Shown one piece after another: positions 1 through 15,664 of a stretch of DNA of 16,642 nucleotides. The translations under genes were made by a program, and so were the position numbers. The stretch covers positions 1 to 16,642 of the forward strand of contig JAKQKF010000124.1 of NCBI GenBank assembly GCA_029560815.1, given 5' to 3'. The notes beneath the pieces were generated by a model that was not told where the DNA came from, searched no databases, and saw only the letters and a list, made by a program, of their open reading frames with translations. Every line of letters starts with the position of its first letter. Within the stretch, counting starts at the first letter, position 1. The stretch is from a bacterium. Lineage in GTDB: Bacteria > KSB1 > UBA2214.

Positions 1-411
1 TCCCAGGGCGACGGCCACACCGTAGAGGATCGCCTCCGGCCGTGGCGGGCAGCCCGAAACGTAGAAATTCACCGGGATGACCTTGTCCACCCCGCCGTAC
101 ATGTTATAGCTGTCATAGAATACATCCCCGCCGCAGGCGCATGAGCCGATCGCGAAAACCAGTTTGGGATCGGGAGTGGCCTCGTAGAGGCGCTGCAAAG
201 CGGGCGCGATCTGACGCGAGACCCCGCCGGTCACCAGCAGGACATCGGCATGGCGCGGCGAGCCCACCAGCTTGATGCCGAAGCGTTCGGCGTCGTAATA
301 GGGCGTGAGCACGTTAATGATCTCGATGTCGCAGCCGTTGCAGGCCGCGCAGTTGGTGTGGTAGACCCACAGCGCCTTGGGAAAGGCCTTTGCGCACAGC
401 TTCTTGAACAT
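1..411 (-). CDS. hyfI: group 4 [NiFe]-hydrogenase small subunit (HyfI/HycG/NuoB-like), partial
   Basis: This small subunit carries electrons through its [4Fe-4S] cluster to the Ni-Fe site of the large subunit at the membrane-facing base of the complex. The 137 codons in the window begin at ATG 411; the C-terminus lies beyond the left edge. The protein starts MFKKLCAKAF and carries C21-A-A-C24-N-G-C27-DIEI, then AERFGIKLVGSPRHADVLLVTG-type sequence (residues 41-62), a Cys in GSCACGG (C91) and a Cys in SGCPPRPE (C121). This is the cysteine pattern of the HycG/NuoB family. An AAAGG element lies 7 nt before the ATG. It follows the HyfF-like gene after 34 nt on the same strand and is the last operon gene visible. 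There is no Tat signal, as expected for group 4. Identification is firm. Confidence 0.95.
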   Translation of the reverse strand, partial: MFKKLCAKAFPKALWVYHTNCAACNGCDIEIINVLTPYYDAERFGIKLVGSPRHADVLLVTGGVSRQIAPALQRLYEATPDPKLVFAIGSCACGGDVFYDSYNMYGGVDKVIPVNFYVSGCPPRPEAILYGVAVALG

Positions 412-445
412 GCCTGAACCTTTCAAATGGTATACGTCTCTCCTG

Positions 446-1942
446 TTACCAGACGGTCAGCACCGCCCGGGTGGCACTCTCCAGCAGCGGGTAGAGGATA
501 TTCGGGAAGAGACCGGTCAAAAGACAGAGGCCGGCGAGGATCACCATGCTGATATATAGCGAAAAAGGCACCTCGCGCACCTCCGCGGCTGCGGGAGAGG
601 CATCGCCGGCGGCGGGGGCCCAGAAGACCTTGTAACCGGCGCGCACCAGGCACGCCAGGGTGAGCAATCCGGTGAGGATCGCTATCGCCACCGCCCACCA
701 GAGATGCGCCTCGCCGAGAGCCAGAAAGAGCGAAAACTTGCTCAAAAAGGCGTTAAGCGGCGGAAGGCCGCCCAAAGCGAGAGCGCCCAAGATAAAACAG
801 AAGGAGGTGACCGGCATCCTGCCGGCGAGCCCTCCCAGCCGGGAGATCCGCCGTTCCCCGCCGGTCGCATACATGACCGCACCGACGCTCAGGAAGAGCA
901 GAGCCTTGATCAGGGTGTGATTGACCATGTGAAAGAGGCCGCTGTAAACCCCGAGATGGGTGCCAAGTCCCAATCCGATGAAGAGGTAGCTGATCTGGCT
1001 GACGCTCGAAAAGGCGAGCATCCGCTTGAGATCGTCCTGAACCAGCGCCATGATGATGCCGGCCAGCATGCTCACAGAGGCGAGCAGGGCGATGAAGGGG
1101 GCGATCCCGCTTAAGACGGGGGCGAAGAGGGTAACGGTGCGGGCGAGGCCGTAAGCCCCCAGTTTGATGATCAGGCCGGAGAGCAGGGCGCTGACCGGTG
1201 TTGGGGCTTCGGAGTGGGCATCGGGCAGCCAGGCGTGAAAGGGGACCACACCCGCCTTGGTGGCGAATCCCACCGTCATCAATCCGACCCCCACCAGGGC
1301 GACATTCTTCGGCACGAGCCGCGCCACCTGCCCCATGTGGGTGAGCAAAAGCGCATTCGCTCCCAGCAGGGGCTGCGCGGCCGAGAAGAGCAGCACCATG
1401 CCGAGCAGACTGAAGGTCATGCCGACGATGACGAGCAGCACATATTTATAGCCCGCCTCCAGAGAGGCTTTTTTACGGTAAAAAGCGACCAGCAAAGCCG
1501 AAGCGAGGGTCGAGGCCTCCATGGCCACGTAAAGAAGGATGAGGTGGTTGGTCGTGACCGTCCAGTTCATCGCGGCGGTGAAAATCAGCACGAGCATGTA
1601 GAAGAGGAGCAGGCTTTTACGATCGGCAAGACCATGCTCCTCCTCCCTTTTCATGTAGCGCGCCGCCTGGATGAGGACGAGGAGCACCACGCCGTTGATC
1701 AGCAGCCCCATCAGGGCGCTGAGGCCGTCCACCCGCAGTCCGCTGCCGAAGAGCAGGAGCTTGCCCCCGAGGGAGGCACTGCTCTGACAGATCGAGAGCG
1801 CCAGCTGGACGATCATGACCAGGATGGCTGTTCCTTCCCGGCCCCAGCGGAGCCCGCCTCTGCCGGCCAAAAAGACCAGCAGTGCGCCCAAAAGCGGCCA
1901 GAGAATCAGGAAGAGGGGGAGAATGGAATCGATCTGTACCAT
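446..1942 (-). CDS. hyfF: antiporter-like membrane subunit, HyfF/NuoN/MrpD-like
   Basis: This 498-residue polytopic protein is one of three proton/sodium-translocating antiporter-like subunits in this operon. Family landmarks are visible: a Glu in a membrane helix (E142 in YVAMEAST), a Lys in GFATKAGVVPFHAWLPDAH (K229), a second Lys in LLSGLIIKLGAYG (K260), VQDDLKRMLAFSS (301-313), and a late Lys in NAFLSKFS (K402). In complex I and hydrogenase-4 these charged residues form the ion-transfer chain. The ATG at 1942 is chosen because GAGGTG sits 5 nt upstream; the open frame extends further upstream only over the preceding HyfE-like gene, whose stop is 10 nt away. Length is close to E. coli HyfF. 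NuoN-like versus HyfF-like naming is family level; the role as an ion-pumping subunit is inferred. Confidence 0.93.
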   Translation of the reverse strand: MVQIDSILPLFLILWPLLGALLVFLAGRGGLRWGREGTAILVMIVQLALSICQSSASLGGKLLLFGSGLRVDGLSALMGLLINGVVLLVLIQAARYMKREEEHGLADRKSLLLFYMLVLIFTAAMNWTVTTNHLILLYVAMEASTLASALLVAFYRKKASLEAGYKYVLLVIVGMTFSLLGMVLLFSAAQPLLGANALLLTHMGQVARLVPKNVALVGVGLMTVGFATKAGVVPFHAWLPDAHSEAPTPVSALLSGLIIKLGAYGLARTVTLFAPVLSGIAPFIALLASVSMLAGIIMALVQDDLKRMLAFSSVSQISYLFIGLGLGTHLGVYSGLFHMVNHTLIKALLFLSVGAVMYATGGERRISRLGGLAGRMPVTSFCFILGALALGGLPPLNAFLSKFSLFLALGEAHLWWAVAIAILTGLLTLACLVRAGYKVFWAPAAGDASPAAAEVREVPFSLYISMVILAGLCLLTGLFPNILYPLLESATRAVLTVW

Positions 1943-1952
1943 GGTCACCTCG

Positions 1953-2615
1953 TTATCTCTTGAGCTCCGAGAGCCGCGCCGAATCGGTGGTGCCGAATAC
2001 CCTGTAAACATCGGCGCCCAGATAAAGCAGGATAAAAACGGCCAGGGCAGCATTGACGAGTATCCCAATCATGGTGCTCTCCTTGAGCTGCGGGGCGAGG
2101 GCGAGCAGGATCAGGTGGACGCCGTTCTCCATCAGGGCGAGGCCGATGGTGATTTTGATGAGATCCCGCCGTGAAAGCAGGGTCCAGATCCCGAGACTGA
2201 AGAGGGTCGCAGCCCCGGCGAGCAGGCTGCGCCCGGGTTCCTCCGCGATGGCGGGGGCCACATCGGCGGCGACGCCGCGGAAGAGCTGAAAGAGCACCAC
2301 GATCATTACCGTCATCATGACCATGGAAAAGACAAAGCCCGGGATCGGCTTGTTCTCGATGGGGGGAACTCCCCGGATGAAACGAAGCAGGAGCCAGGGG
2401 ATGAGCACCACATTGAAGAGCAGGCAAGTGGCCGCCCAGAGGTAAAGCCCTTCATTATCGTACAAGCGGGCGCAGGCGATGATGATCAGGCAGAGCAGGA
2501 CGGAATTGACAAGATAGGCCCAGGCGGCAGCGCGCAGATTGCGGATCTCCACCGCGGCCATGGCGGTGATGAGGATCGCTGTCGTCAGCGTGAGAAGGGT
2601 CTGGCCGGTGATCAT
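1953..2615 (-). CDS. hyfE: hydrogenase-4 component E-like membrane protein (HyfE)
   Basis: This 220-residue hydrophobic protein is almost the same length as E. coli HyfE. It starts MITGQTLLTLTTAILITAM and has several membrane segments. A C-terminal NuoK-like part, around residues 155-200, reads RDLIKITIGLALMENGVHLILLA and includes a Glu within a membrane helix (LMENG). HyfE joins NuoK-like sequence to additional helices and is found in hydrogenase-4 but not in the smaller hydrogenase-3. ATG 2615 overlaps the stop of the ferredoxin gene by 4 nt (ATGA), which indicates translational coupling and fixes the start; the longer open frame upstream is only read-through of the neighbour in another frame. 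It probably forms part of the ion pathway between HyfC and the antiporter-like subunits. Confidence 0.92.
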   Translation of the reverse strand: MITGQTLLTLTTAILITAMAAVEIRNLRAAAWAYLVNSVLLCLIIIACARLYDNEGLYLWAATCLLFNVVLIPWLLLRFIRGVPPIENKPIPGFVFSMVMMTVMIVVLFQLFRGVAADVAPAIAEEPGRSLLAGAATLFSLGIWTLLSRRDLIKITIGLALMENGVHLILLALAPQLKESTMIGILVNAALAVFILLYLGADVYRVFGTTDSARLSELKR

Positions 2616-3103
2616 GAGGCCTCCCTCTCCCCCGGCGCACCGTGGGGCATGGAGGATCCGACATAGTTGCGGCCCTTGCGCATGCGCCGCGTGGGGATGT
2701 GGTCGATGGCGTTTTCGGTCTCGAAGCAGCGTCCGCAGCGCTTGCAGGTGAGCATGTAGAGCTGTTGCTCGATGTAGAGATCGGTCTTGTCGTCGGTCGC
2801 CGATTCGAAGAGCTGGGTCATGGTGATCGCCCCTTCGGGACAAACTTCGGCGCAGCGTCCGCAATAGGTGCAGCGGTCGAGGATGAACTCCATCCGCGTC
2901 TTTTCGCCCTCATCGTAGCAGCGTATCAGCCGCGACGGGCAGACGTTGGCGCAGCCTCCGCAGCCGATGCATTTAGAGGCATCGACATCGATCTTGCCGC
3001 GAAAGCCCTCGCTCACCTCGGCGCCCGGCCCGAAGGGATAGGGCAGGGTGACGCGCAGATTGCTGAAGCAGATCCGGGCCTCTTTTATTTTGGATTTGAG
3101 CAT
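2612..3103 (-). CDS. hyfH: polyferredoxin-like subunit, HyfH/HycF/NuoI-like
   Basis: This 163-residue 2[4Fe-4S] protein wires the input module to the small subunit cluster. The two cluster motifs are C45-IG-C48-GG-C51-ANV-C55-P and C78-TY-C81-GR-C84-AEV-C88-P. The stretch GFRGKIDVDASKCIGC (33-48) matches the opening of HycF. A third group, C120-KR-C123-GR-C126, follows; HycF-type proteins also carry extra cysteines here, possibly for a metal site. The gene starts at ATG 3103, 32 nt after the HyfC-like stop, with a weak GGCGGA-type ribosome site. Its stop overlaps the HyfE-like start by 4 nt. It lies at the position expected in hyf/hyc operons, between the HyfC-like and HyfE-like genes. Confidence 0.95.
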   Translation of the reverse strand: MLKSKIKEARICFSNLRVTLPYPFGPGAEVSEGFRGKIDVDASKCIGCGGCANVCPSRLIRCYDEGEKTRMEFILDRCTYCGRCAEVCPEGAITMTQLFESATDDKTDLYIEQQLYMLTCKRCGRCFETENAIDHIPTRRMRKGRNYVGSSMPHGAPGEREAS

Positions 3104-3135: not shown

Positions 3136-4038
3136 TCAGGAGCCGACCAGGGCCAGAGCCAGGCCGGCGAGCTCGATGACGATCAGGGCCATGAAAAAGC
3201 GCACGGCCTGATCGATGCGCAGCCGCGGATTAACCACATGAACGACGCCGACGATGATCAGCAGGATCACCATCTTGAGCAAAGTGAAGAAAAAATTGAG
3301 CGCTGCCGTCTGCATCACCGGCCAGGGGACGAAAAGCGAAATAAAAACCGCGGCGAAGATGAACTGCTTGGCATAGATCATCCACTTGAAGAGGGCCAGT
3401 TTGGGGCCGCTCTGCTCTATAAAGGGACCCTCCATGATCTCCTGGTCGGCTTCGACGATATCGAAGGGAAGGCGCGCCATCTGCGCCACGATGGCGATGA
3501 AGAGGGTGAGGCCCGCGAGCAGAGTCGAGAAGGTGGGCGCGTTGGCGGCCTGCCAGGCCATGATGTCGCCGAATTGCGTTGAACCCGCCTTGACCGCCAT
3601 GCTGATCAGGGCGATGACGATGACCGGCTCGACGGTCAGCAGCATCATCACCTCGCGCGAGGCGCCGATGGCGGCGTAAGGGCTGTCGGAGGCGACACCG
3701 CTGATCACCACCATCACCGCGGCGAGGGTTATGAGATAGATAAAGACCAGGATGTCGCCCGCACTCTCCAGGGGCGGGAGCATGCCGATGGGGATGAGGA
3801 CGGCGGTGGTCAGGATGGCCGCCAGCCCGAGCAGAGCGCTGTGGCGGAAGAGGGCATGCGGCGTGGTGACCAGTTCCTCCTTCCCCAGCAGCTTGAGAAG
3901 GTCCAGGTAGGGCTGATGCAGGGGCGGCCCGATGCGCGAATGGACCAGAGCCACCAGTTTGCGCATCACGCCCTCAAAAAGGGGCGCCAGCAGCAGCACC
4001 AGGATGATCTGCACAAAGGCCATCAGGTAACTGTTCAT
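3136..4038 (-). CDS. hyfC: membrane anchor subunit, HyfC/HycD/NuoH-like
   Basis: This 300-residue membrane protein is the NuoH-type subunit that joins the hydrogenase catalytic pair to the membrane arm. Landmarks are SRIGPPLHQPYLDLLKLLGKE (34-54), SPYAAIGASREVMMLLTVEP (119-138) and FDIVEADQEIMEGPFIEQSG (192-211). Their acidic loop residues are conserved in HycD, EchB and NuoH, where they lie near the quinone-site equivalent. About eight hydrophobic segments are visible. ATG 4038 overlaps the stop of the large subunit gene by 4 nt (ATGA). Length agrees with HycD/HyfC (roughly 300-315 residues). Identification is firm; the coupling role comes from family knowledge. Confidence 0.95.
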   Translation of the reverse strand: MNSYLMAFVQIILVLLLAPLFEGVMRKLVALVHSRIGPPLHQPYLDLLKLLGKEELVTTPHALFRHSALLGLAAILTTAVLIPIGMLPPLESAGDILVFIYLITLAAVMVVISGVASDSPYAAIGASREVMMLLTVEPVIVIALISMAVKAGSTQFGDIMAWQAANAPTFSTLLAGLTLFIAIVAQMARLPFDIVEADQEIMEGPFIEQSGPKLALFKWMIYAKQFIFAAVFISLFVPWPVMQTAALNFFFTLLKMVILLIIVGVVHVVNPRLRIDQAVRFFMALIVIELAGLALALVGS

Positions 4039-5735
4039 AGCCGCTCCTTCAATCCGTGCCTTCGGCGATAGAGCTCCCGCAGCTCCTCCCTGCTCCAGAT
4101 GCGCACCTCGCCGCTGCGCACGTCGATGGTTTCGAGCCGTTCAGTGCAGGAAAAGCAGGGATCCATGCTGCCCAGGCCGATGGGGACGTCGGCGATATAT
4201 TCACCGGTCACCATCACCGGAATGCCCTGCAGGTTCTGAAACGTGGGCGCGCGGGCTTTCCAGCGGTAAGGACGCTGATCTTCGCCGGTGATGACGAAAT
4301 GGTGGGTCTCGCCGCGCGGAGCTTCGACTGAAGAGATGCCGGTTCGCCCGGCGGGAATCGGTTGACGCATGTCCGCCATGATCGGGCCATCTGGCATCAT
4401 GCTCAGGGCGTCGCGGATGAGGCGGACCGCTTCGAGAGTTTCACGCAGGCGCACCAGCACCCGCGACCAGATGTCGCACCCCTGCTCGACCATCACCTCG
4501 CACCCGAGTTCGGGATAGGCGGCGTAGGGATGGTCGATGCGGATATCGATGCCGATGCCGGAAGCGCGGGCAGTAGGGCCGAGCAGGGCCAGGGCGATGG
4601 TATCTTCGGGGGTGATGACGCCGACCTTCTCGCAGCGCGCCTGGAGGGTGGTATCGCCGGCGATGGCCTCGAGGACTGCCTTGCTCTCCTTCTCCACCCT
4701 GGCGATCACCTCGAGCAGTTCGCTGTGCTGCTCCTTCGGGACGTCGCGGCGGACACCGCCGACCAGATTCATGCCTAAAAGCTTGCGGTTACCGGTGATC
4801 TTTTCGCAAAGCCACATCACCGGTTCGCGGATGCGCCAGGCTTGCATCAGCACTGTATCAAAGCCGATGATATGGCCGGCGATGCCGAGCCAGAGCAAAT
4901 GGCTCTGGATGCGCTCAAGCTCAAGACAAATGACACGAATGAAACGCCCGCGGGCCGGGACCTCAATTTCTGCTGCTTTCTCTACTGCTTGACAGTACGC
5001 CGTACTGTGTACCGACCCTCATATACCGCAGATCCGTTCCGCGAGGAACGGCACCTGGTTATAGTTGAGCTGGCTGTCGGCGATCTTTTCGACACCGCGA
5101 TGATTGTAAAAGCCGCGGTAATCGCCGCCGACCACCCTCTCACCCTCTATGAAGAGACGGAACTGGGCCGGCTCCTCCAGCACCGGAAAAAAGGGGCCGA
5201 TCGGCACGACCGTCGCCCCTTCCGGGGGCTCCTTGAAGATGGGGGTCATCCCCACGGCCTTGTCCGGATAGGTCTGCAGCGGCATGTCCCGGCGCAGGGG
5301 ATGGAGATCCGCCGGCCAGTCATCAGCCAGCATGAGCCGGCGCGGATCGGGATGGTTGCGCAGGGGAATGCCGAGCATGTCCTGGATCTCCCGCTCCGCC
5401 CAGTTGGCCGCCGGAATATCCGCCGCTCCGGTGATCGCCTCGATCCACAGGTCTTTCTCCGGCAGGTTCAGCCGCACGGTGACGAAGAAATGGTGCGCCG
5501 GGAAGGAGTAGACATAATCGACCAGGTAGCCGCCGGATTCGCTGCGGTAATCGGTGCCGACCGCGACGACAAAACGGCCGGAGAGATCATGGAAGAGATA
5601 GCGGTTGACCGCAACGCTGTCGTTGCGGTCGATATGGATCAGGAACATATCGGGGACCGGGTTTTCGGTACGGCGGATGCGGGCTCCGAACTTGTTGTTG
5701 AGATGGTTAAGCATCTCTTGTGCAGTCATGGCCAA
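4035..5735 (-). CDS. hyfG: selenocysteine-containing group 4 [NiFe]-hydrogenase large subunit with 30-kDa domain (HycE/HyfG-like)
   Basis: This is the catalytic Ni-Fe subunit of the complex. If the in-frame UGA (5021-5019) is read as Sec, the gene gives 566 residues, the normal size of HycE/HyfG. Residues 1-180 form the NuoC-like domain, with the signature W112-AEREIQDMLGIPLRNHPDPRR. The L1 motif is R234-I-C236-G-I-U239-GSVH243 and the L2 motif is D525-P-C527-FS-C530-TER533. U239 replaces the second L1 cysteine; the other three Ni ligands are cysteines. The 33 residues after R533 resemble the HycE tail that HycI removes, and a HycI-type protease is encoded upstream. Sequence on both sides of the UGA is in one frame and well conserved, which argues against decay. 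AAGGAGG lies 5 nt before the TTG at 5735 and 11 nt before an in-frame ATG at 5729, so the true start may be either. Standard gene calling splits this gene in two (5735-5019 and 4898-4035). The TGA of its stop overlaps the next ATG. Confidence 0.93.
4992..5008 (-). promoter_or_regulatory. putative bacterial SECIS hairpin in the hydrogenase large subunit mRNA
   Basis: On the minus strand a perfect 7-bp stem ACAGTAC/GTACTGT closes a 3-nt GGC loop. Seventeen nucleotides separate the UGA from the first loop G. Bacterial SECIS elements are hairpins just downstream of UGA with a G near the start of the apical loop, at roughly this distance, and bind SelB. The match is by eye, without folding energies; the loop is smaller than in E. 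coli fdhF. Confidence 0.75.
5019..5021 (-). other. in-frame UGA, predicted selenocysteine codon 239 of the hydrogenase large subunit
   Basis: The codon reads TGA on the minus strand, between codons for ERICGI and GSVHST. In homologues this position is the second Cys of RxCGxCxxxH. A single base separates TGA from TGC/TGT. The downstream hairpin, the unbroken conserved frame and a second Sec-type gene in the window favour Sec over a stop or an error. Confidence 0.85.
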
Positions 5736-5750: not shown

Positions 5751-7811
5751 CTACATGCCGCCGGATAGGGTGAAGAGGATAAATAGGGCCAGCGCAGCTC
5801 CGACCGCCAGCCACAACAAATAGAGATGGGGAGCGCCGCTGTGGGTGGCGCTGAAGAGGCGCATCAGTTTCATCGACGAATGCGCCAGGGGCCGGTAGAA
5901 CCAGCGGTCGATATCAATAACCCGGTTGAAGGCCGGTTCTTTCCTGAAGAGCTTTTTCGGCCAGGCGATGGTCGGATAGATGCCCGGCCGTTCATAGCGG
6001 CCGATGCGCAGCCGGAAAAGCTGTTTGAAGGGGAGATAGAATCCATGCGCGCGGTAGCGCGCATCCTGGTCGCTCAACTCCTCGCCGCAGTACCAGGTTT
6101 CGACGGTCCGCTGCCGGGCGCCGCCGGCGCGAAAGATGCCCCACGCCAGCAGGGCGCACAGGCCGAAGATGATCGTCAGCAGGAGAGCGTTCCAGGCGGC
6201 CGGGCTGCCCGCCGCGTTGAGCGAAAAGCCGCGAAAGATCCCTCCGCCAAAGGTCGATGCTGCTGTCGGCATCGAGCCCGCCGGGAAGAGATAGGCGATG
6301 CTGCGATGGATCCACCCTATTGGCCATTGCGGCACCAGACCGAAGAGAATGCAGAGGGTGGCGAGAAAATTCTGCGGCAGGCGCATGGCCAGCGGCACAT
6401 CCCCCGGTTTGGCCCTGCTGCCGTTATCGGTATACTTGCCGAAAAAGATCGCACCGAAAAATTTGATAAACGAGGCGAGCGTGACGGCGGAGATGAATAT
6501 GGCGACCAGAGCCAGGAGGATAAAAAAGGGCTCGCTGAAGCCACCGCGCAGCGCCGACTGATAGATCAGCCATTTGCTGGCGAAGCCGCTGAACGGGGGG
6601 ATGCCGGCAATCGAGAGCGACGCGATGATCGTGGCCGCGGCAGTAATGGGCATGATGCGGACCAGACCGCCGACCTTGTTGATGTCCCGGGTGCCGGTCT
6701 TGTAAAAAACCGACCCGGCGTTGAAAAAAAGGCATGATTTATAGCTGACGTGATTGATCAAATGGAAAATGCCCGCGCCAAGTCCGATCATGCCTATCAC
6801 CGGCTGCGTCCCGATGAAATGGAGTCCGATGCCGATGGCGAGAAACATATAGCCCATCTGGCCGATGACATGGAAAGAAAGCAGCCGCTTGGCATCATCC
6901 TGCACCAGGGCGGTCATGGTCCCGACCAGGATCGAAACCGCTCCGAACGAGGCGATGATGAGCCCCCAGATCTGGCTGTGGGTGGAGATGGGCAGCAGAC
7001 CGCAAAAAACGCGCACAAGGCCATAAATTCCCAATTTGGTCATCGAGCCGGCAAAGGCCGCACTGGCCGGGGCCGGTGCCGCAGGATAGGCATCGGGCAG
7101 CCAGTCGCCCATGGGCAGAATGCCCGCCTTGGTGGCGAATCCGAGGAAGAAACAGCCCAGAATGAAATGGAGCAGGCCGGGCTGGCTCTGCTGCATCTCC
7201 GCCATCGCTATCTTGAGAAAGGAGAACGAAAAAGAGCCGGAGAAGCGATAGAGCAGGATGCCACCGATGAAAAGAAAGATCGTGGCCACATGGGTGATGA
7301 GAAAATATTTATAGCCTGCGCGCAGCCGCGCCCGCTCCTCGTGCCTGAAGATGACCATGAGATAGGAGGTCAGCGTCATGATTTCCCAAAAGACGAAAAA
7401 GAAAAAGAGGTCGGCCACCACGACCACATTCAGTACAGCCGCGAAAAATACCAGCAGCACACTGTAAAAGTAGCGGAGGCTGCCGGAGCGGTAGTGCGCG
7501 ATCTGCATGAATTTTTGCGCATAGAGGGTAACCAGGAGGCTGACGATGGCGATGATGGCGAGAAAAAGGGCGCTGAGATAGTCGATCTGATAGATCAGGG
7601 CCGCCCCCAGGCCCGGGATCTGCAGGAGAGGCAAACCGGTCGAAACCGGCCCCCCACGGAACACCCCGAGGACAATGGTCAGGATCAGCAGGGTGCCAAG
7701 TGCGGCCGCTCCGAAGGCCACCCAACCGACCAGCTTGCGCTTTCCGCCCAGAAACAAGGCGAGGAGCGCACCAGCCAGATAGATTCCCTGCGCGGAGAAG
7801 AATGTGTTCAT
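5751..7811 (-). CDS. hyfB: large antiporter-like membrane subunit, HyfB/HycC/NuoL-like
   Basis: This 686-residue polytopic protein is close in length to E. coli HyfB (about 672). It is an ion-translocating subunit of the membrane arm. Charged residues within helices are E143 (FVFWEIMTLTS), K228 (GFATKAGILPMGDWLPDAY), K259 (AGSMTKLGIYG) and K413 (GFASKWLIYQ). VQDDAKRLLSFHVIGQ lies at 303-318. After the core, a C-terminal extension carries the HycC/HyfB-type YCGEE element followed by an amphipathic stretch and a last membrane helix (LYLLWLAVGAALALFILF), the part that acts as a lateral helix in this family. ATG 7811 has GAGG 9 nt upstream and is 39 nt after the HyfD-like stop. The TAG at 5751-5753 is followed by the ribosome site of the large subunit gene. 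Confidence 0.94.
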   Translation of the reverse strand: MNTFFSAQGIYLAGALLALFLGGKRKLVGWVAFGAAALGTLLILTIVLGVFRGGPVSTGLPLLQIPGLGAALIYQIDYLSALFLAIIAIVSLLVTLYAQKFMQIAHYRSGSLRYFYSVLLVFFAAVLNVVVVADLFFFFVFWEIMTLTSYLMVIFRHEERARLRAGYKYFLITHVATIFLFIGGILLYRFSGSFSFSFLKIAMAEMQQSQPGLLHFILGCFFLGFATKAGILPMGDWLPDAYPAAPAPASAAFAGSMTKLGIYGLVRVFCGLLPISTHSQIWGLIIASFGAVSILVGTMTALVQDDAKRLLSFHVIGQMGYMFLAIGIGLHFIGTQPVIGMIGLGAGIFHLINHVSYKSCLFFNAGSVFYKTGTRDINKVGGLVRIMPITAAATIIASLSIAGIPPFSGFASKWLIYQSALRGGFSEPFFILLALVAIFISAVTLASFIKFFGAIFFGKYTDNGSRAKPGDVPLAMRLPQNFLATLCILFGLVPQWPIGWIHRSIAYLFPAGSMPTAASTFGGGIFRGFSLNAAGSPAAWNALLLTIIFGLCALLAWGIFRAGGARQRTVETWYCGEELSDQDARYRAHGFYLPFKQLFRLRIGRYERPGIYPTIAWPKKLFRKEPAFNRVIDIDRWFYRPLAHSSMKLMRLFSATHSGAPHLYLLWLAVGAALALFILFTLSGGM

Positions 7812-7850: not shown

Positions 7851-9305
7851 CTATAATCCCATTGTTCCCATCAACTGCATCGCGACCCAGGGGGCGAGCA
7901 GGGTGAGGAGCATCAAAACGATCAGCACAGCGGCCATGACGCCGGGTACGGCGCCCGCTTTGGCAACGGGGCCGGAAGCGGGTCCGAAAAAGACCTTGTG
8001 GCCGATGTGGAGAAACCAGGCAAACGCCACAGCAATCTCCAGGGCAAACGGTATCAGCAGCAGCCAGCCCGATACTCCACCCAGTTTGAGCGCCGCCACC
8101 ATGAGATAGAATTTGCTCCAGAATCCCGAAAAAGGCGGCACACCGAGTATCGCCAGCATGCCGACCACAAAGGCCATGGCCGCCAGAGGCGAGGTCCGGG
8201 CGACGCCGGAGAGTTCTGATATCCTGCGGGTGCCGGCGGTATAGCTGAGCACCCCGACGCTCAGAAAGAGCAGCCCCTTGCCGACACTGTGGTTCATGAT
8301 GTGCATCGCTCCGGCATAGCCGCCCAGCCGGCTGCCCATGATCGCCACCCCTACGCCCAGAAAGACATAGGCGAGATGGGCGATGGTCGAATAGGCGAGC
8401 AGCTTTTTCAGATCATCCTGGAAGAAAAATAACCAGAGTGCCAGCAGCATGGTCACCACCGCCAGGATGGAGACGATCAGACCGGCGGCCCAGGGGAGGC
8501 CGGGATTGGCCAGAGCCAGACGCACCATGAGAAAAACACCCGCCTTGACCATGGCCGCAGCATGCAGATACATGCTCACCGTGGTCGGGGCGGCCATCGC
8601 ATCCGGCAGCCAGGTGAAAAAGGGGAACTGGGCCGATTTGGCCCACGCCGCGACCGCAAAAAAGAGAAATACCCACAGACGCATCCGGGGAGCCAGATCA
8701 GAGAGGGCATCGAAGGCAAAACTGCCGGTATGGACATAAAGCAGGACCAGCCCGAGAGCGAAAAAGAGACCACCCGAAAAGGTCATCAGCAGGGCTTTGA
8801 AACCGGCCCGCAGCGATTCCGGATTGCGATAGTGCGAGATCAGCGCCCACGAACAGAGGGTGGTCATCTCCCAGAAAAAATAGAGCTGCAGCAGGTTCGG
8901 GGAGAGAGCGACGCCGATCATGGCGGTGATGAAGAGCAGCAGCCAGGCGTGATGGCGGGGCTTGCCCTCAGCGCCGGCATGCTCCCGGTTGCCCGCGCCG
9001 AGATAGGCGGTGGCGTAGAGCACGACCAGAAAGCCGAGCAGTACGACCACCAGCAGCAGGAGCAGGGAGAGACCGTCGAGGAGGAAACCGAAGAGGCCCT
9101 CCCGGAAATAGCCCTCCAGCCATCGCCAGGTCAAGGGCAGGCTTAGCCAGCTCCCCTCGGGTTTGGCCAGGAGCAGCCAGAGGAGGCTGAGCACCATCCC
9201 CCCCGCCGCCCCCATGGCGCACTTGTCGGCATGCCTTGCGGGCAGGAGCGCACAGAGCACAGCTCCGATGAAGGGCAAGAGGAACAAGAGGATCACGCTG
9301 GACAT
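7851..9305 (-). CDS. hyfD: antiporter-like membrane subunit, HyfD/NuoM-like
   Basis: This 484-residue membrane protein matches HyfD in size (about 479 in E. coli). Ion-path residues of the family are present: E146 in FFWEMTTL, K223 in WAKSAQFPFFTWLPDAMAAPT, K254 in HAAAMVKAGVF, FFQDDLKKLLAYSTIAHL (294-311), H339 in MNHSVGKGLL and K398 in GFWSKFYL. It is the first of three antiporter-like genes in the operon. This full set (B-, D- and F-like) is typical of hydrogenase-4 and absent from hydrogenase-3. ATG 9305 has AGGG 9 nt upstream and lies 64 nt after the protease stop, one of the larger gaps in the operon. HyfD is the best fit; an MrpA/MrpD-like label is possible because these families intergrade. 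Confidence 0.9.
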   Translation of the reverse strand: MSSVILLFLLPFIGAVLCALLPARHADKCAMGAAGGMVLSLLWLLLAKPEGSWLSLPLTWRWLEGYFREGLFGFLLDGLSLLLLLVVVLLGFLVVLYATAYLGAGNREHAGAEGKPRHHAWLLLFITAMIGVALSPNLLQLYFFWEMTTLCSWALISHYRNPESLRAGFKALLMTFSGGLFFALGLVLLYVHTGSFAFDALSDLAPRMRLWVFLFFAVAAWAKSAQFPFFTWLPDAMAAPTTVSMYLHAAAMVKAGVFLMVRLALANPGLPWAAGLIVSILAVVTMLLALWLFFFQDDLKKLLAYSTIAHLAYVFLGVGVAIMGSRLGGYAGAMHIMNHSVGKGLLFLSVGVLSYTAGTRRISELSGVARTSPLAAMAFVVGMLAILGVPPFSGFWSKFYLMVAALKLGGVSGWLLLIPFALEIAVAFAWFLHIGHKVFFGPASGPVAKAGAVPGVMAAVLIVLMLLTLLAPWVAMQLMGTMGL

Positions 9306-9369: not shown

Positions 9370-9891
9370 TCATGCCGTTCCCGATTCGGCCGGCAGGGCC
9401 GGACCGGCGAGGAGCTGAGCCAGACAGGTGATGCTCTCCTTCACCTCCGGGCTGATGGGCGCATGCAGCGCCCGGTTTTTAGGCTGTACACCGATGAGCG
9501 TCACATCCGCGCCGGTTTCAGCCTCCAGATAATGCATGAGCAGCGCGAGGCCCGGCTTGTGGGTGCTGAAACGATCGCTGCGCAGCTGCTCCCGGCGCAG
9601 AGAGATGATTTCGCCCGGCGTCCCGGAGAAATCGACGGCATCAATGAGGATGATCGCGCGGGGCCGGAGCGCCTTGACCTCCGCAGTATAATTCTCAGGC
9701 ACCTCCTCGCAGACCAGGGCGTGGGCGAAGCCGCAGGAGTTCAGCAGGCGGGCCGTCTCGCAGCCAAGGTTGTCATCGCCGCAGAGGGGATTGCCGATGC
9801 CAAGCACGACGGTTATGCCCTCACTCTGCCGCAGGGGAAATTCGCCCGCACGCAGGTTCGTCCAGGCTGTATTTTCCACCACTCCGTTCAT
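9370..9891 (-). CDS. hycI: HycI-type [NiFe]-hydrogenase maturation endopeptidase
   Basis: This 173-residue enzyme removes the C-terminal peptide of the large subunit after nickel insertion. The family pattern is clear: GIGNPLCGDD (31-40, nickel-sensing D40), IDAVD (83-87, D84), THKPGLALLMHYL (110-122, H111) and LIGVQPKN (132-139), corresponding to GDDG, VDATD, TTHNMPLNYL and LGIQP in E. coli HycI. The first motif reads GDDNLG rather than GDDG. ATG 9891 overlaps the stop of the upstream flavin subunit by 4 nt (ATGA), so the longer frame starting at 9993 is rejected. Its substrate is most likely the large subunit in this operon, which has a HycE-like 33-residue tail after DPCFSCTER. Confidence 0.93.
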   Translation of the reverse strand: MNGVVENTAWTNLRAGEFPLRQSEGITVVLGIGNPLCGDDNLGCETARLLNSCGFAHALVCEEVPENYTAEVKALRPRAIILIDAVDFSGTPGEIISLRREQLRSDRFSTHKPGLALLMHYLEAETGADVTLIGVQPKNRALHAPISPEVKESITCLAQLLAGPALPAESGTA

Positions 9892-10712
9892 CGTTCCGGC
9901 AGCCGTTTGATCTGGCGCCACGAGAAGACCGGTCCGTCCACACAAATATACTTGTGGCCGATGGCGCAGTGGCCGCACTTGCCCACCCCGCACTTCATAT
10001 AGCGCTCGAGGGTGGAGATGATGCGCTCCTCGGCGAAGCCCATGGCCAGCAGCTCCTGGATGACAAAGCGGATCATCACGGGCGGGCCGCAGGTGAAAGC
10101 GACCGTGCGGTCAACGTCGAGCTTGATCTTTTCGAAGAGGGTGGTCACCACCCCCACCGGCCCCTTCCAGTCCGGATCGGGAGTATCCACGGTCTGGAGC
10201 AGGGTGATATCACCCCGTTCGCTCCACTGCTTGAGCAGTGGCTTGTAGACCTGGTCGGCGGGCGTGCGCGCGCCGTAGAGAATGATGAACTGGCCGAAAT
10301 CACCCCGGCAGTCGAGCATCGGATCGATCAGGGATTTAAGCGGCGGCAGCCCGATGCCCCCGGCGATGAAAAGGATATCCTGCCCCTTGACCTCCTCGAG
10401 CGGGAAGCAGTTACCGAGCGGGCCGCGGATGCCCATAAAACCGCCGGGTTTAAGAGCGTGCATGGCCCGGGTCACAATCCCTGCGGCCCGGACCGTGATG
10501 TCGAATTGCTCCGGATGGTTGGGATTGGAGGCGAAGCCGAAGGGGGCTTCACCGGCGCCGAAGACCGAGGCCTCGACGAACTGGCCGGACTTGAAACGGA
10601 AATTCTTCCTCAGCTCGCGCGAGATCAGGCTCAGGGTGAATGTCTTGATGTCATGGGTCTCATCGACGATCCGGTCGATGACGGCGAGGTCGGGCAGATA
10701 GATGTTTTCCAT
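9888..10712 (-). CDS. FAD/NAD(P)-binding electron-transfer subunit with [2Fe-2S] site (AsrB/HydG-like, FNR family)
   Basis: This 274-residue cytoplasmic flavoprotein should exchange electrons between NAD(P)H and the iron-sulfur subunits. It has an FNR-type FAD domain (residues 1-108, with PFGFASNP at 57-64 in the flavin-binding position). A nucleotide-binding half follows, with AGGIGLPPLKSL (117-128) and CGPP (208-211). The C-terminal cluster motif is C241-GVGK-C246-GH-C249 plus C257, as in anaerobic sulfite reductase AsrB, sulfhydrogenase gamma and PyrK-like proteins. ATG 10712 lies 4 nt after the previous stop, with GTGAG just upstream. An in-frame ATG at 10727 is an alternative overlapping start. 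NADH versus NADPH preference cannot be read here. It probably pairs with the AsrA-like protein encoded upstream. Confidence 0.92.
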   Translation of the reverse strand: MENIYLPDLAVIDRIVDETHDIKTFTLSLISRELRKNFRFKSGQFVEASVFGAGEAPFGFASNPNHPEQFDITVRAAGIVTRAMHALKPGGFMGIRGPLGNCFPLEEVKGQDILFIAGGIGLPPLKSLIDPMLDCRGDFGQFIILYGARTPADQVYKPLLKQWSERGDITLLQTVDTPDPDWKGPVGVVTTLFEKIKLDVDRTVAFTCGPPVMIRFVIQELLAMGFAEERIISTLERYMKCGVGKCGHCAIGHKYICVDGPVFSWRQIKRLPER

Positions 10713-10716
10713 AGGC

Positions 10717-11769
10717 TCACTGTCCATCCCGGCGCAACCGCTTGACCACCGCGCTGATATCGAGAAGGCCGAAGGCCTCGCAGACGGTGATGCAGCGGCC
10801 GCAGCCGACGCAACCAGGGTGACCATCCTGCTGGATGTAGGCGTAACTCAGTTTGTGGTAAAAGCGGCGTTTGACCCGTTCCTTGGCCCTGGCGCGCGGA
10901 TTATGACCCGAAGCCTCGCGCGTAAAGCCGGCATACTGGCAGGAATCCCAGCAGCGGATGCGGGCTCCGCTCTGCGCCCCGTCGGGGCAGTCGATGACGT
11001 CGAAGCAGGTGCAGCAGGGACAGACGTGGGTGCACCCCCCGCAGCTGAAGCATTCGGAACCCATCTCTTCCCAGAGCTCCTCGCGCACACGATTGTTGGT
11101 GATCTGGATGCAGGCCTTGGCGAGATAGGCGGTGGGGAGCATGCGGGCGTCGCAGGCTTCCATAAGCTCGCGGCGGCGGCTCTCATCGCGCCTGCCTGCC
11201 TTCACGGCCGGCACTTTCCACTCCTCAAGAAAGCGGCGGCCGGCGCCGGAACCGACGTCGATGAGAAACTCTTCACCGAGATCGGTCAGCTGCAGATCGA
11301 AGCCGCTCTCCAGCCAGGGACCGCCGTTGCAGCAGATGCAGAAACAGCTTTCGTTGGGCGTATTGCAGGCCAGGCTGATGATCAGGGTGTTCTTGCGCCT
11401 GGCCAGGTAGAGCTCGTCGTAATAGGCCCCCTGGAAAAATCCATCCATGTGGACCAACCCCTGCACATCGCAGGAACGGATGCCAAAGAGCACACGGGGT
11501 TTTTCCGGCGGCGGCTGGCTGAGCCGGGGCTTGCTGCCCGAGGTATCGTACGCAAAGAGCACCTCGCGCGGCGGGAGGAAGAAGCGCTTGAGCGGATCAA
11601 GATCGTTGACATAATCGAAAGTCAGCCTGCGCAGGGAGCGAAGCGGCCCGAAGGTCACTTCGCCGCCGGCAAGCTTTTGCGGACCGATGACGGTCATCTT
11701 TTGCATGCAGAGTGACAAATTTTCGAGAAAGGCCTGCTTGCTGACGACCAGCCGTGTTCCTGCCTGCAT
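10717..11769 (-). CDS. dicluster [4Fe-4S] electron-transfer subunit (AsrA/HydB-like)
   Basis: This 350-residue protein belongs to the family of anaerobic sulfite reductase subunit A and sulfhydrogenase beta subunit, which relay electrons between the flavin subunit and the catalytic partner. Visible features are GIRSCDVQGLVHMDGFF (96-112), an ACNTPNESCFCICCNGGP segment (134-151) typical of the family, and two ferredoxin-like clusters: C240-FS-C243-GG-C246-THV-C250-P and C320-VG-C323-GR-C326-ITV-C330. ATG 11769 shares one base with the stop of the upstream gene (TGATG) and has GGAG 8 nt upstream. The open frame extends 9 codons further, but that longer start lacks support. Its position between the molybdopterin-type and flavin subunits suggests it is the hub of the soluble input module. 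Confidence 0.92.
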   Translation of the reverse strand: MQAGTRLVVSKQAFLENLSLCMQKMTVIGPQKLAGGEVTFGPLRSLRRLTFDYVNDLDPLKRFFLPPREVLFAYDTSGSKPRLSQPPPEKPRVLFGIRSCDVQGLVHMDGFFQGAYYDELYLARRKNTLIISLACNTPNESCFCICCNGGPWLESGFDLQLTDLGEEFLIDVGSGAGRRFLEEWKVPAVKAGRRDESRRRELMEACDARMLPTAYLAKACIQITNNRVREELWEEMGSECFSCGGCTHVCPCCTCFDVIDCPDGAQSGARIRCWDSCQYAGFTREASGHNPRARAKERVKRRFYHKLSYAYIQQDGHPGCVGCGRCITVCEAFGLLDISAVVKRLRRDGQ

Positions 11770-13778
11770 CAAACCATCTCCAATTTGGCGGCGCATAGTT
11801 TCATCTGCGGAATGGCCGATTCCGGTTCCAGCATGGACGGCATCAGGGATTGGGTCAGGCCGTCCTTGTGGTGGATCGGGAGGAAGAGTGTCCCGGGCGG
11901 CACGGCACGGGTGACGATGACGGTGCGGCGCACCTCGCCGCGGCGGGTCTTGACCAGGACCTGCCAGCCGCTGCGCAATTTAAGCGTCTTGGCGTCATCG
12001 GTGTTGATTTCGACGGTGGCGACCGGGTCCTCCTTGTCAAGAGTGAAGGAACGCGTGACCAGGGTTCCGGAACGGCGGTGGAAGAGTGGCCTGCCGGTGA
12101 TCAGTGAGAAGGGATACTCCTCATCGGGCTCTTCGCCAAAGGGGAGGCCGGCGGTCACCTCGGTGAAGGCGCCCTGGCGGTCGCCGATCAGTTTGCGATA
12201 GAGGATGCACTCCTCGTCGTCTGTGTGGGCGGGCCAGAGGACCCCGCCGGGCCGGCCGATCGATTTCCAGCTGATGCCGCTGTAGCAGGGCATGAACTGC
12301 TGCATCTCGGAAAAGAGCTCTTCAGCCTTCCGCACCGGCCAGCCCGCCCCGAGGGCGTTGGCCAGCAGCTGGATGATCTCGAGGTCGGGTTTGCAGCCCT
12401 TGAGCGGGGCGATGGCGCGGCGCACGCGCTGGATGCGGCGCTCCAGGCTGGTATAGCTTCCCTCCTGCTCGGCGAAGCTGGCGGCGGGCAGGACCAGATC
12501 CGCCCTCGCCGCCGTCTCGGTCAGAAAAAGCTCCTGCACGAGGAGAAAATCAAGTTTGTCAAACGCCGCCAGGGTTTTGGCGCTCTCCGGGGCGCTCCAG
12601 GCGAGGTTCTCGCCGACGACGTAGAGACCACGAATGCGGCCGCCGGCCTGATCGAGCATCTCCTGGAGGGTCAATCCCTTTTGGGAGGGCAGACTGCAGC
12701 CCCAGGCCGATTCGATCGCGCGGCGGGCCTCGGCCTCGCGCAGGTCGCGCTGGCCCGGCCCCCATTCGCTCATCAGACCGCTATCGGCCGCCCCCTGGCT
12801 GTTGTTGGAGGTCAGCAGCGGCAGGAGCCCCCCGCCCTCACGGCCGATGCTGCCTGTGAGCAGGGCGAGATTCCAGAGGGCCCGGACATTGGCCGTGCCG
12901 TTGGCCTGCTGGGTGATGCCGGTGCCAAAGAGGATGAGCAGAGAGGAGGCCTTGCCGATCAACTCAGCGGCGGTGCGAAGCTCATCCTGCCCGACGCCGC
13001 AGACGCTTTCTGCGTAGCCGGGCGTGAAACGGTCGAGGCCGTCATCGCGCAGCTTGGCAAGCCCGGTGACGCCCGGCGCCTGCCAGCCTTCCGCGAGCAG
13101 GATATGGCTGAGGGCGTTGATCAGAGCCAGGTCGGTGCCGGGGCGCAGCCGGAGGTGCAAACGGAAAAAACGGCTGTGCTCCTGCTGGCGGGGATCGATC
13201 TGAATAACCGGAACACCCCGTTTGGCGGCCTGCAGGAGCAGGGAGCCGGCGCGGGCATTCTGCGCTTTGGCATCGGCGCCGATGACCAGAATGACCCCCG
13301 CCTTCTCAATGTCGGCGAGCGCAGCAGTGGCATTGGCGAACCCGCTCTGCTCACGCAGGACGCGCAGGGAGGGAGCGTGGTCAAAACGGAGCGGGGCATC
13401 CAGATGGGGGGTTTGCAGCACCGACCTCGCCAGCTTGCCGAGCAGATAGGAGGCTTCATTGGTCGTCTTGAGGGAACCGATCACCCCGAGCGCATCCCGG
13501 CCATGGGCTTTTTGCACTCCGGCGATCCTTTCGGCGGCATAGGAGAGCGCTTTGTTCCAGCTTACGGGTTTGAGGCGGTTGTTGATACGAAGAAGGGGTT
13601 GGGTGAGGCGATCGGGGTGATGAATGATTTGGTGGCCGTTCCACCCCTTGATACAGAGGGTGCCTCGGCTCACAGGGTGATCTCTTTGCGGCGCGGCAGC
13701 CAGAACCACGCCTTGCTCCACCTCCAGGAGCATTCCACAGCCACATCCGCAGTAGGGACACGTCGTCTGAATTTTCAC
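11769..13778 (-). CDS. formate-dehydrogenase-like molybdopterin oxidoreductase lacking the catalytic Sec/Cys
   Basis: This 669-residue protein has the fold of FdhF/FdhA, close to the length of E. coli FdhH (715). The N-terminal [4Fe-4S] site is intact (C7-PY-C10-GCG-C14, C42-I-K44-G). A gapless match over TPHLDAPLRFDHAPSLRVL (residues 123-141) to the FdhH active-site segment puts D133 at Sec140 and H134 at His141. The catalytic Arg333 position falls on L322 (PLLTSNN instead of PVRGQNN). It may therefore bind the metal through Asp, as nitrate reductase NarG does, use another substrate, or serve only as an electron conduit, like the NuoG domain that lost its cofactor. Start GTG 13778 has AAGGGAG 6 nt upstream. 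It is the first gene after the operon promoter, and its stop overlaps the next start. Family assignment is firm; substrate unknown. Confidence 0.9.
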   Translation of the reverse strand: MKIQTTCPYCGCGCGMLLEVEQGVVLAAAPQRDHPVSRGTLCIKGWNGHQIIHHPDRLTQPLLRINNRLKPVSWNKALSYAAERIAGVQKAHGRDALGVIGSLKTTNEASYLLGKLARSVLQTPHLDAPLRFDHAPSLRVLREQSGFANATAALADIEKAGVILVIGADAKAQNARAGSLLLQAAKRGVPVIQIDPRQQEHSRFFRLHLRLRPGTDLALINALSHILLAEGWQAPGVTGLAKLRDDGLDRFTPGYAESVCGVGQDELRTAAELIGKASSLLILFGTGITQQANGTANVRALWNLALLTGSIGREGGGLLPLLTSNNSQGAADSGLMSEWGPGQRDLREAEARRAIESAWGCSLPSQKGLTLQEMLDQAGGRIRGLYVVGENLAWSAPESAKTLAAFDKLDFLLVQELFLTETAARADLVLPAASFAEQEGSYTSLERRIQRVRRAIAPLKGCKPDLEIIQLLANALGAGWPVRKAEELFSEMQQFMPCYSGISWKSIGRPGGVLWPAHTDDEECILYRKLIGDRQGAFTEVTAGLPFGEEPDEEYPFSLITGRPLFHRRSGTLVTRSFTLDKEDPVATVEINTDDAKTLKLRSGWQVLVKTRRGEVRRTVIVTRAVPPGTLFLPIHHKDGLTQSLMPSMLEPESAIPQMKLCAAKLEMV

Positions 13779-14358: not shown

Positions 14359-15141
14359 CTATCGGACCACCGCCAGCGGCCGAACCGTGACATGGTTTGG
14401 CGCTGCCGGTGGCACCTTGTCCTCTACCACCACCGCTTCTCCTTTTTCGTAGACGCGCAGATCGAAATACCAGGGTCCCGGCTGAGCACAATAGCCCCAG
14501 ATCAGGTTATCCTTGCCGATGAGAAGATATTTGAACGGCTCGATCTGCCCCGTGAAGGCAAGCTCCGCCATCAGGTTGCCGTCCAGAAAGGCATAGACCC
14601 GCTCTCTCGTCCAGGTGATGCGAAATTCATAGATGCGGCCCAGGCGCCAAAGATAATCCTCAACGCAGGTGACCTCATCGCGGGTGCCGATGCCGCGCGC
14701 CGCGGCCAGCACCTTGAATCCGGCCCTGCCCGGCATGGTGGAATAGCCGCTGCCGGTGCGGATATGGATCCAGGAGCCGTCCGTGTCAAAGATCTCCTTG
14801 TTGTTGGTATAGATCCGGGAATAGAGGTTGATGATGTGCAGCTTGAGATCATCCACCCACTGTTCGGCCGGATTGAAATTGGTGACCTTGACGGCCAGCG
14901 TCCCTTCCAGGGGCAGCGGTTTTGCGAGATGGATCTGCAGCTGGCTGGTGGTATGCTCTGCGTTCCACCCCTTGACCGCATCGAACTCCCCGTCGATATT
15001 GTAAATGGTTTCGCCCTGGCCCGGGGCGGCCGAGGTCAGGGGATGGCTGTAGATGAGCCGGCGATGGTCCGCCGGCTGGGCGAAAAGGGGAAGGGAGACG
15101 AGCAGATAGAACAGGATGGTCAGGAAAGGGAATGGTCTCAT
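14359..15141 (-). CDS. secreted concanavalin A-like lectin/glucanase-fold protein
   Basis: This 260-residue protein begins with a signal peptide (MRPFPFLTILFYLLVSLPLFA, probable cleavage before Q22). The rest is beta-rich. Its segment RLGRIYEFRITWTRERVYAFLDGNLM, then FTGQIEPFKYLLIGKDN and WYFDLRVYEKG, resembles lectin/glucanase-fold domains, in which a strand carrying 'W...v..yvDG' packs the sheet. No catalytic glutamate pair was recognised, so carbohydrate binding is more likely than hydrolysis. The tail VEDKVPPAAPNHVTVRP looks like the linker that usually introduces a fibronectin type III domain, but the protein stops there. ATG 15141 is preceded by GAGGAGG only 2 nt away; the frame is open further upstream but without a signal peptide. 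It converges on the HesB-like gene. Function not known. Confidence 0.8.
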   Translation of the reverse strand: MRPFPFLTILFYLLVSLPLFAQPADHRRLIYSHPLTSAAPGQGETIYNIDGEFDAVKGWNAEHTTSQLQIHLAKPLPLEGTLAVKVTNFNPAEQWVDDLKLHIINLYSRIYTNNKEIFDTDGSWIHIRTGSGYSTMPGRAGFKVLAAARGIGTRDEVTCVEDYLWRLGRIYEFRITWTRERVYAFLDGNLMAELAFTGQIEPFKYLLIGKDNLIWGYCAQPGPWYFDLRVYEKGEAVVVEDKVPPAAPNHVTVRPLAVVR

Positions 15142-15664
15142 AGCCTCCTCACAAGATGTGGCCCCGCCGCCACACGCGGATGAATAATGGTCGACATATA
15201 GATTGTAATTATTAAGGTTACAGACATGCCTGCTCCGGCGGCGACGGATTACCATATTGAGGGCAAATAATGGGCCACAATTTGCTTGACTTTTTCAGAT
15301 TGTAAATAATGCAATAATATTCGTTATTTATAACGATTATGTATAATTTTTCTTTCTTTTGGAATTTTTTTAGCCTATATTTGTTACATTAAACAACAGC
15401 AGCACTGGTATTGACTCCCGCGCAACAGCATCCTTCGCACGGCATTTCCTCAGTTTTATCTGCACTACCTAACCAACAGTTTTTGTTCGTCGTAATCCAT
15501 TTGCACAAGGGGAATTGATAAGGCAAGGTGGGGCTCACCCAGCCGCACCCATGCCGCTTGAGGCCAGCCGGCGCAAGCTGATCCTGGAGCATGCTATTGC
15601 ATCTCCGGACTCGGCGACTGCTGCTGCCGGAGGCGTCGCTCATTATTTTAAACCAGGAGGCACC
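15142..15664. other. divergent intergenic region with AT-rich core and structured leader
   Basis: This 523-nt region separates two divergent secreted-protein genes. From about 15183 to 15400 it is AT-rich, with TATAAT at 15342-15347 and TTGACT at 15286-15291, though no convincing pair of boxes at 16-18 nt. From about 15520 to 15650 it is GC-rich and can form hairpins: GGTG/CACC (15527-15539) and CTCCGG/CCGGAG (15603-15632). I recognise no known riboswitch, RNA gene or coding frame in it. Confidence 0.5.

Follow-up and report, generated by a model that had tools for sequence, protein, structure and literature searches.

The selenocysteine (Sec) that occurs naturally in [NiFe]-hydrogenase large subunits has so far been listed in the second cysteine motif (L2) only, as far as the accessible parts of PMC13188914 go. 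Table 1 of that 2026 compilation of 119 prokaryotic selenoprotein families and subfamilies holds FrhA and MvhA/VhuU as its only hydrogenase large subunits, both with the motif UxxC, and enzymes of the HycE/HyfG/Ech type are absent from the table (PMC13188914). The accessible text of a study of E. coli Hyd-2 places the natural Sec at the first L2 cysteine and describes variants in which each of the four ligand cysteines in turn was replaced by Sec, positions 61 and 64 of the first motif (L1) among them; all four variants were active, though at a lower level (PMC11212049). Hydrogenases with Sec in L1 do not appear in the accessible parts of PMC12013277, PMC11291895, PMC9723677, PMC11227280, PMC5029168 and PMC1794560, and in the open-access literature (subscription papers and preprints being outside our scope) we found no description of natural Sec in L1 of a hydrogenase. 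The original prediction for the locus described here had put the Sec of characterised [NiFeSe] enzymes at the first L2 cysteine and had known of no described example of a bridging Sec in a group 4 hydrogenase.

Here we analysed a window of 16,642 nucleotides (the whole stretch of DNA, to which all positions refer) that contains a hydrogenase large-subunit gene with an in-frame UGA codon. When the UGA is read as a residue, translation yields 566 residues with no further internal stop. The gene had been predicted to encode a group 4 large subunit interrupted by one in-frame UGA exactly at the second L1 cysteine, with the sequence on both sides intact and in frame and with both cysteines kept in L2. 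The Pfam domains and the homology to HycE confirm the group, the 566-residue reading confirms the intact flanks, and L2 reads DPCFSCTER, with DPCFSC complete; to this description we add that the gene lies on the minus strand, the plus-strand reading of coordinates 4035..5735 having been rejected as not being the gene. Three of the four ligand positions are thus encoded by Cys codons and the second of L1 by UGA, a departure from the four-cysteine CxxC/CxxC pattern. In the alignment, the UGA column is Cys in 14 of 14 Cys-containing homologues and matches the second L1 cysteine of E. coli HycE (structure-derived chain 7z0s_E), native Cys244 by our own count, which takes the internal tag in this chain into account. 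A single base change would turn 25 further codons of the gene into TGA, the three remaining metal-ligand Cys codons included, so that a UGA at a ligand cysteine is by itself weak evidence; the evidence becomes strong because the protein ends of relatives recur at the same codon.

The large subunit matches the 30-kDa and 49-kDa complex I domains and NiFeSe_Hases in Pfam, and is a NuoC-NuoD-like fusion homologous to HycE. Its closest solved relative is HycE of the E. coli formate hydrogenlyase (7z0s_E, E 3e-122), which also ranks first in a Foldseek search with a fold model of the protein; this model was mediocre (mean pLDDT 71, below 50 in L2) and was used for the fold only, not for ligand geometry. 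None of the 25 NCBIfam models listed for the large subunit reaches its cut-off, and the NiFeSe models score 47 bits against cut-offs of 600 and 780. Alignment with HycE places the first L1 cysteine at residue 236, the UGA at 239 and the L2 cysteines at 527 and 530, while HycE Asp192/Glu193, Ser283, Arg478 and Asp529 (as named in the accessible part of PMC9474812) correspond, by our own matching of the numbers, to Glu187/Glu188, Ser278, Arg474 and Asp525. According to the same part of that source, the HycE site has two terminal and two bridging cysteines, Cys531, the first of L2, being terminal (PMC9474812). The alignment pairs HycE Cys531 with Cys527 of the window protein. We take the second cysteine of each pair to be the bridging one (Cys68 and Cys533 in D. 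gigas) and the first L1 cysteine to be a terminal Ni ligand.

The genes around the large subunit, all on the minus strand, make up a complex-I-like set of the Hyf type that includes three antiporter-like subunits (see the table). Complex-I-like membrane subunits, a small subunit and a maturation protease adjoin the large subunit, as expected of group 4, and the remaining genes of the operon appear intact. In the FdhA-like subunit an Asp occupies the column in which three formate dehydrogenases of solved structure have the Cys or Sec that binds Mo; in this it differs from the FdhF-type subunit of formate hydrogenlyase, where Cys or Sec ligates Mo. The HydB-like and FAD/NAD(P)-binding subunits (9888-11796, minus strand) look as if a sulfhydrogenase-type electron input had been joined to a group 4 hydrogenase. 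Beyond these genes, an open-ended reading frame (15515-16642, plus strand) carries Calx-beta and DUF11 domains and likely encodes a surface or repeat protein, and a frame of 298 aa (14359-15255, minus strand) has no Pfam match in the 262-aa part that was scanned.

Features of the hydrogenase locus, with positions in the window
Feature	Position	Strand	Details
NuoB/HycG-like small subunit	1..426	minus	cut by window edge; PF01058
HyfF/NuoM-like antiporter-like subunit	446..1963	minus	PF00361
HyfE-like membrane subunit	1953..2612	minus	NF008556 120.5 bits, below cut-off 136; PF00420
HyfH/NuoI-like ferredoxin subunit	2612..3103	minus	domain/family profile matches
NuoH/HyfC-like membrane subunit	3136..4038	minus	PF00146
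Group 4 large-subunit gene	4035..5735	minus	start TTG 5735 or ATG 5729; UGA stop 4037-4035
L2 motif DPCFSCT	4137..4157	minus	Cys527 and Cys530 both intact
Candidate SECIS hairpin (weak)	4992..5008	minus	ACAGUAC-GGC-GUACUGU, 17 nt long, 7 bp, GGC loop, 17 nt past UGA
In-frame UGA, codon 239	5019..5021	minus	predicted Sec at second L1 Cys (RICGI-U-GSVH)
Second antiporter-like membrane subunit	5751..7811	minus	PF00361
HyfD-like antiporter-like membrane subunit	7851..9305	minus	NF005097 506 bits, cut-off 430
HycI-type hydrogenase maturation protease	9370..9993	minus	TIGR00072 88.9 bits (cut-off 47.45); TIGR00142 83.5, below 119.1
FAD/NAD(P)-binding reductase-like subunit	9888..10742	minus	PF00970, PF00175, PF10418
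HydB (sulfhydrogenase beta)-like iron-sulfur subunit	10717..11796	minus	NF040833 169 bits, below cut-off 750; PF17179
FdhA-like molybdopterin subunit	11769..13778	minus	TIGR01591 551 bits, below cut-off 666

When the N-terminal half (238 aa) was used as query under a length limit that shuts full-length proteins out, 324 proteins were matched, 120 of which were listed, and 109 of these 120 terminate at an L1 cysteine. The ends fall into two classes: 74 of the listed matches stop after ..AERICGI, at precisely the UGA position, and 35 stop after ..AERI, at precisely the first L1 cysteine (for example P0166, P0170, P0182 and P0221). The remaining 11 comprise nine longer pieces in which L1 is Cys-Cys, P0197, likewise Cys-Cys (QICGIC), and the exceptional P0196, whose sequence changes past RICGI as if frameshifted. 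From the fact that these protein ends fall on Cys codons, we infer that the stops of the relatives are UGA. The window's own fragment cluster consists of 13 sequences on 16 contigs, so that one isolated assembly error does not account for the stop. Among the matches listed, the fragments reach 90% identity to the window protein, and the source names include KSB1, Calditrichaeota, Desulfobacterota and Armatimonadetes. Several N halves are named, for example, 'NADH-quinone oxidoreductase subunit C' in their source records; genes split in this way in the databases would presumably be missed by surveys that require an intact L1. The original prediction had named unrelated stops or frameshifts in close relatives as an outcome that would speak against it; the ends at the UGA codon or at the first L1 cysteine in 109 of the 120 listed matches, with one apparent frameshift (P0196), are favourable to it. 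Its proposal of an L1 Sec variant at the second cysteine is supported, and the further class that ends at the first (35 of the 120 listed) was not visible to it.

Outside this collection, the second-Cys pattern had no match in viral contigs, and the first-Cys pattern matched one locus (L001), which was rejected for surroundings unlike a hydrogenase. Protein search of the viral contigs found nothing, and an alignment search there gave 26 pattern matches, none of them a relative. In plasmids the search returned 250 records, all below 60% identity (40 of the 250 listed).

UGA terminates seven of the 11 operon genes whose ends were checked. It is therefore a working stop that has not been reassigned throughout, a reassignment of the genetic code was rejected on this ground, and decoding at codon 239 must be site-specific, the SelB/SECIS route being the one known in bacteria. 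A SECIS after the UGA is possible. When set against the bSECIS rules in the accessible part of PMC13188914 (stem of 4-16 bp, loop of 3-9 nt with an early G, spacing of 16-37 nt, energy at most -7.5 kcal/mol), the candidate hairpin complies in its stem of 7, its GGC loop, its early G and its spacing of 17, but not in its energy of -6.8 kcal/mol. It has a probability of about 0.036 (about 3.6%) in the ensemble of the 45 nt after the UGA, where a rival fold reaches -9.1; competing folds are more stable than the hairpin, and the 45-nt fold is unremarkable (z -0.77). An equally good hairpin follows 8% of the codons of the gene, or 18% when bulges are allowed, in a scan in which the known E. coli SECIS elements do not stand out either (20-26% of fdhF and fdnG codons are as good). 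The fdhF and fdnG minihelices are of similar size, lie 18 and 19 nt past the UGA and have energies of -4.2 and -4.5; these have lower stems, whereas the window hairpin has none. GC3 drops from 0.77 to 0.52 across the 25 codons past the UGA, and that of the 22-codon stretch past it is about the 16th lowest of 545. A scan of the window with Rfam gave three matches only, sub-threshold and unrelated. In Table 1 of PMC5029168 (2016), two KSB1 genomes have selD and no known selenium trait, which either counts against Sec or is an effect of incomplete single-cell genomes.

The weakness of the candidate SECIS leaves some room for a reading in which an unusual UGA-reading tRNA inserts cysteine or another residue, the enzyme then being an ordinary [NiFe] hydrogenase. 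UGA-reading tRNAs that carry Cys exist. Against this reading, the same UGA serves as the normal stop of seven of the 11 operon genes, and the tRNA gene that it calls for was not found in the window, where ARAGORN reported no tRNA gene of any kind; we regard it as very unlikely.

The downstream half was examined in the same manner. With the C-terminal half as query (287 aa), 3800 proteins were matched and 120 listed, and the best 57 of the 3800 are C-terminal pieces with 63-99% identity. The motif DPC[FY]SC is intact in 120 of the 120 listed matches, the L2 Sec of [NiFeSe] enzymes being absent, and Arg474, Asp525, Cys527 and Cys530 are kept in all 57 close rows, as is Ser278 in all 42 of those that reach it. 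N and C halves can also be paired: between the lists of 120 each, 21 N rows (17 second-Cys, three first-Cys and one Cys row, P0197) share with a C row a longest contig of exactly equal length. Twenty of these N rows have an L1 end, against a background of about 0.7, the average per offset of the 14 matches that 20 shifted offsets gave in all.

Could the large subunit then be made as two polypeptides, with the UGA as a true stop, somewhat like VhuA/VhuU? Methanogens do have such a split pair, and among the 57 close C-half rows 33 have their first residue at 242, three codons past the UGA, so that a start codon is available there in those relatives. In the window, however, the codon at 242 is GTA and the first start codon downstream of the UGA is codon 280, so that a separately translated C half would miss about 40 conserved residues. 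The other 24 rows start at nine other places, and a total of 10 places is what the choices of gene callers would give; with starts so scattered, and codon 280 the first available in the window, it is not obvious that the C half forms a separate gene. A split enzyme would moreover be short of one of its four ligands, and in the rows listed the breaks fall on ligand Cys codons only. Taken together, these points make separate polypeptides extremely unlikely. At residue 246, the 33 C-half rows starting at 242 (within rows P0243-P0298) all have Ala or Gly, and 10 of 14 full-length Cys homologues have Cys, a change that may go with Sec or reflect simple kinship.

An ordinary nonsense mutation, a decaying gene or a sequencing error would need only the one base between TGC or TGT and TGA, from which 25 other codons are likewise one step off, but is extremely improbable given the ligand-cysteine ends of 109 of the 120 listed relatives, the 13 sequences on 16 contigs, the conserved downstream halves with intact L2 and the intact reading of the rest of the operon.

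We consider it very likely that the UGA encodes a selenocysteine, predicted to bridge Ni and Fe, in the large subunit of a group 4 hydrogenase, and the comparison of sequences makes Sec in L1 of such an enzyme appear well supported at the protein level. The UGA would be decoded through the bacterial SelB/SECIS route, and the selenium would act as a bridging ligand between Ni and Fe. The enzyme would be part of a complex-I-like, ion-pumping complex that evolves H2 or works reversibly, fed by the FdhA-like, HydB-like and flavin module, and its C-terminal tail would be processed by a HycI-type protease.

The two classes of L1 end were defined from the protein ends and not from a tree, and a first tree had already been inspected before the clade test was made. 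The N-half tree (129 Cys-Cys, 74 second-Cys and 35 first-Cys rows, with P0196, P0197 and P0001 left out) has several long branches and many weak forks, and on it the class label changes 13 times against a mean of 91.5 for shuffled labels. Using a thinned tree (26 of 35 first-Cys, 37 of 74 second-Cys and 23 of 120 full-length Cys rows), we could reject both a single clade of first-Cys rows (AU p 1.3e-5) and a single clade of second-Cys rows (AU p 1.9e-33), and the two classes interleave. Judging from the protein ends, the other L1 ligand, the first cysteine, is probably recoded in the second class, which would make it a sister class with its own Sec site. The interleaving suggests that the Sec site moves between both L1 cysteines, or that each appeared repeatedly, which includes transfer between species. 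It seems likely to us that these are widespread bacterial complex-I-like hydrogenases with natural selenium in L1 and not in L2, in a version with a bridging ligand, to which the window belongs, and a version with the first L1 cysteine as terminal ligand, the site having moved several times; some rows of the second class could carry both.

If this is true, a bridging selenolate and a class with selenium at the other L1 ligand would mean that evolution uses positions that have so far been probed by engineering only (PMC11212049, accessible text). With natural Cys and Sec relatives to compare, it would become testable what each ligand contributes to proton transfer, to H2 bias and to resilience against oxygen or sulfide. 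The engineered Hyd-2 variants are artificial and belong to group 1, whereas the window holds a candidate natural enzyme of group 4. Sec variants of E. coli Hyd-1 were reportedly engineered as well, as the forerunner of the Hyd-2 study.

Among natural enzymes, the Cys-containing group 4 homologues (P0002-P0121) are full-length, with the same fusion and with L1 and L2 intact, and at 54-60% identity they are more distant from the window protein than the fragments are. E. coli HycE and HyfG of hydrogenase 4 share with it the NuoC-NuoD fusion, L2, the C-terminal tail and the Hyf-type neighbours; HycE, however, has Cys at both L1 positions where the window protein has UGA at the second, and in comparison with these systems the window adds HydB-like and flavin subunits and has an FdhA-like partner with Asp at the Cys/Sec position. 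The [NiFeSe] hydrogenases (HysA, VhuU/MvhA, FruA/FrhA) have a natural Sec as one of the four ligands of the Ni-Fe cluster that are otherwise cysteines, as is predicted for the window protein. Their Sec sits in L2 (UxxC in Table 1 of PMC13188914; the first L2 cysteine in the accessible text of PMC11212049), whereas L2 is all-Cys here and the UGA lies in L1, within a complex-I-like architecture unlike theirs. The window enzyme would thus resemble a [NiFeSe] hydrogenase in having selenium in its cluster, but it falls outside the known [NiFeSe] families, which have Sec in L2.
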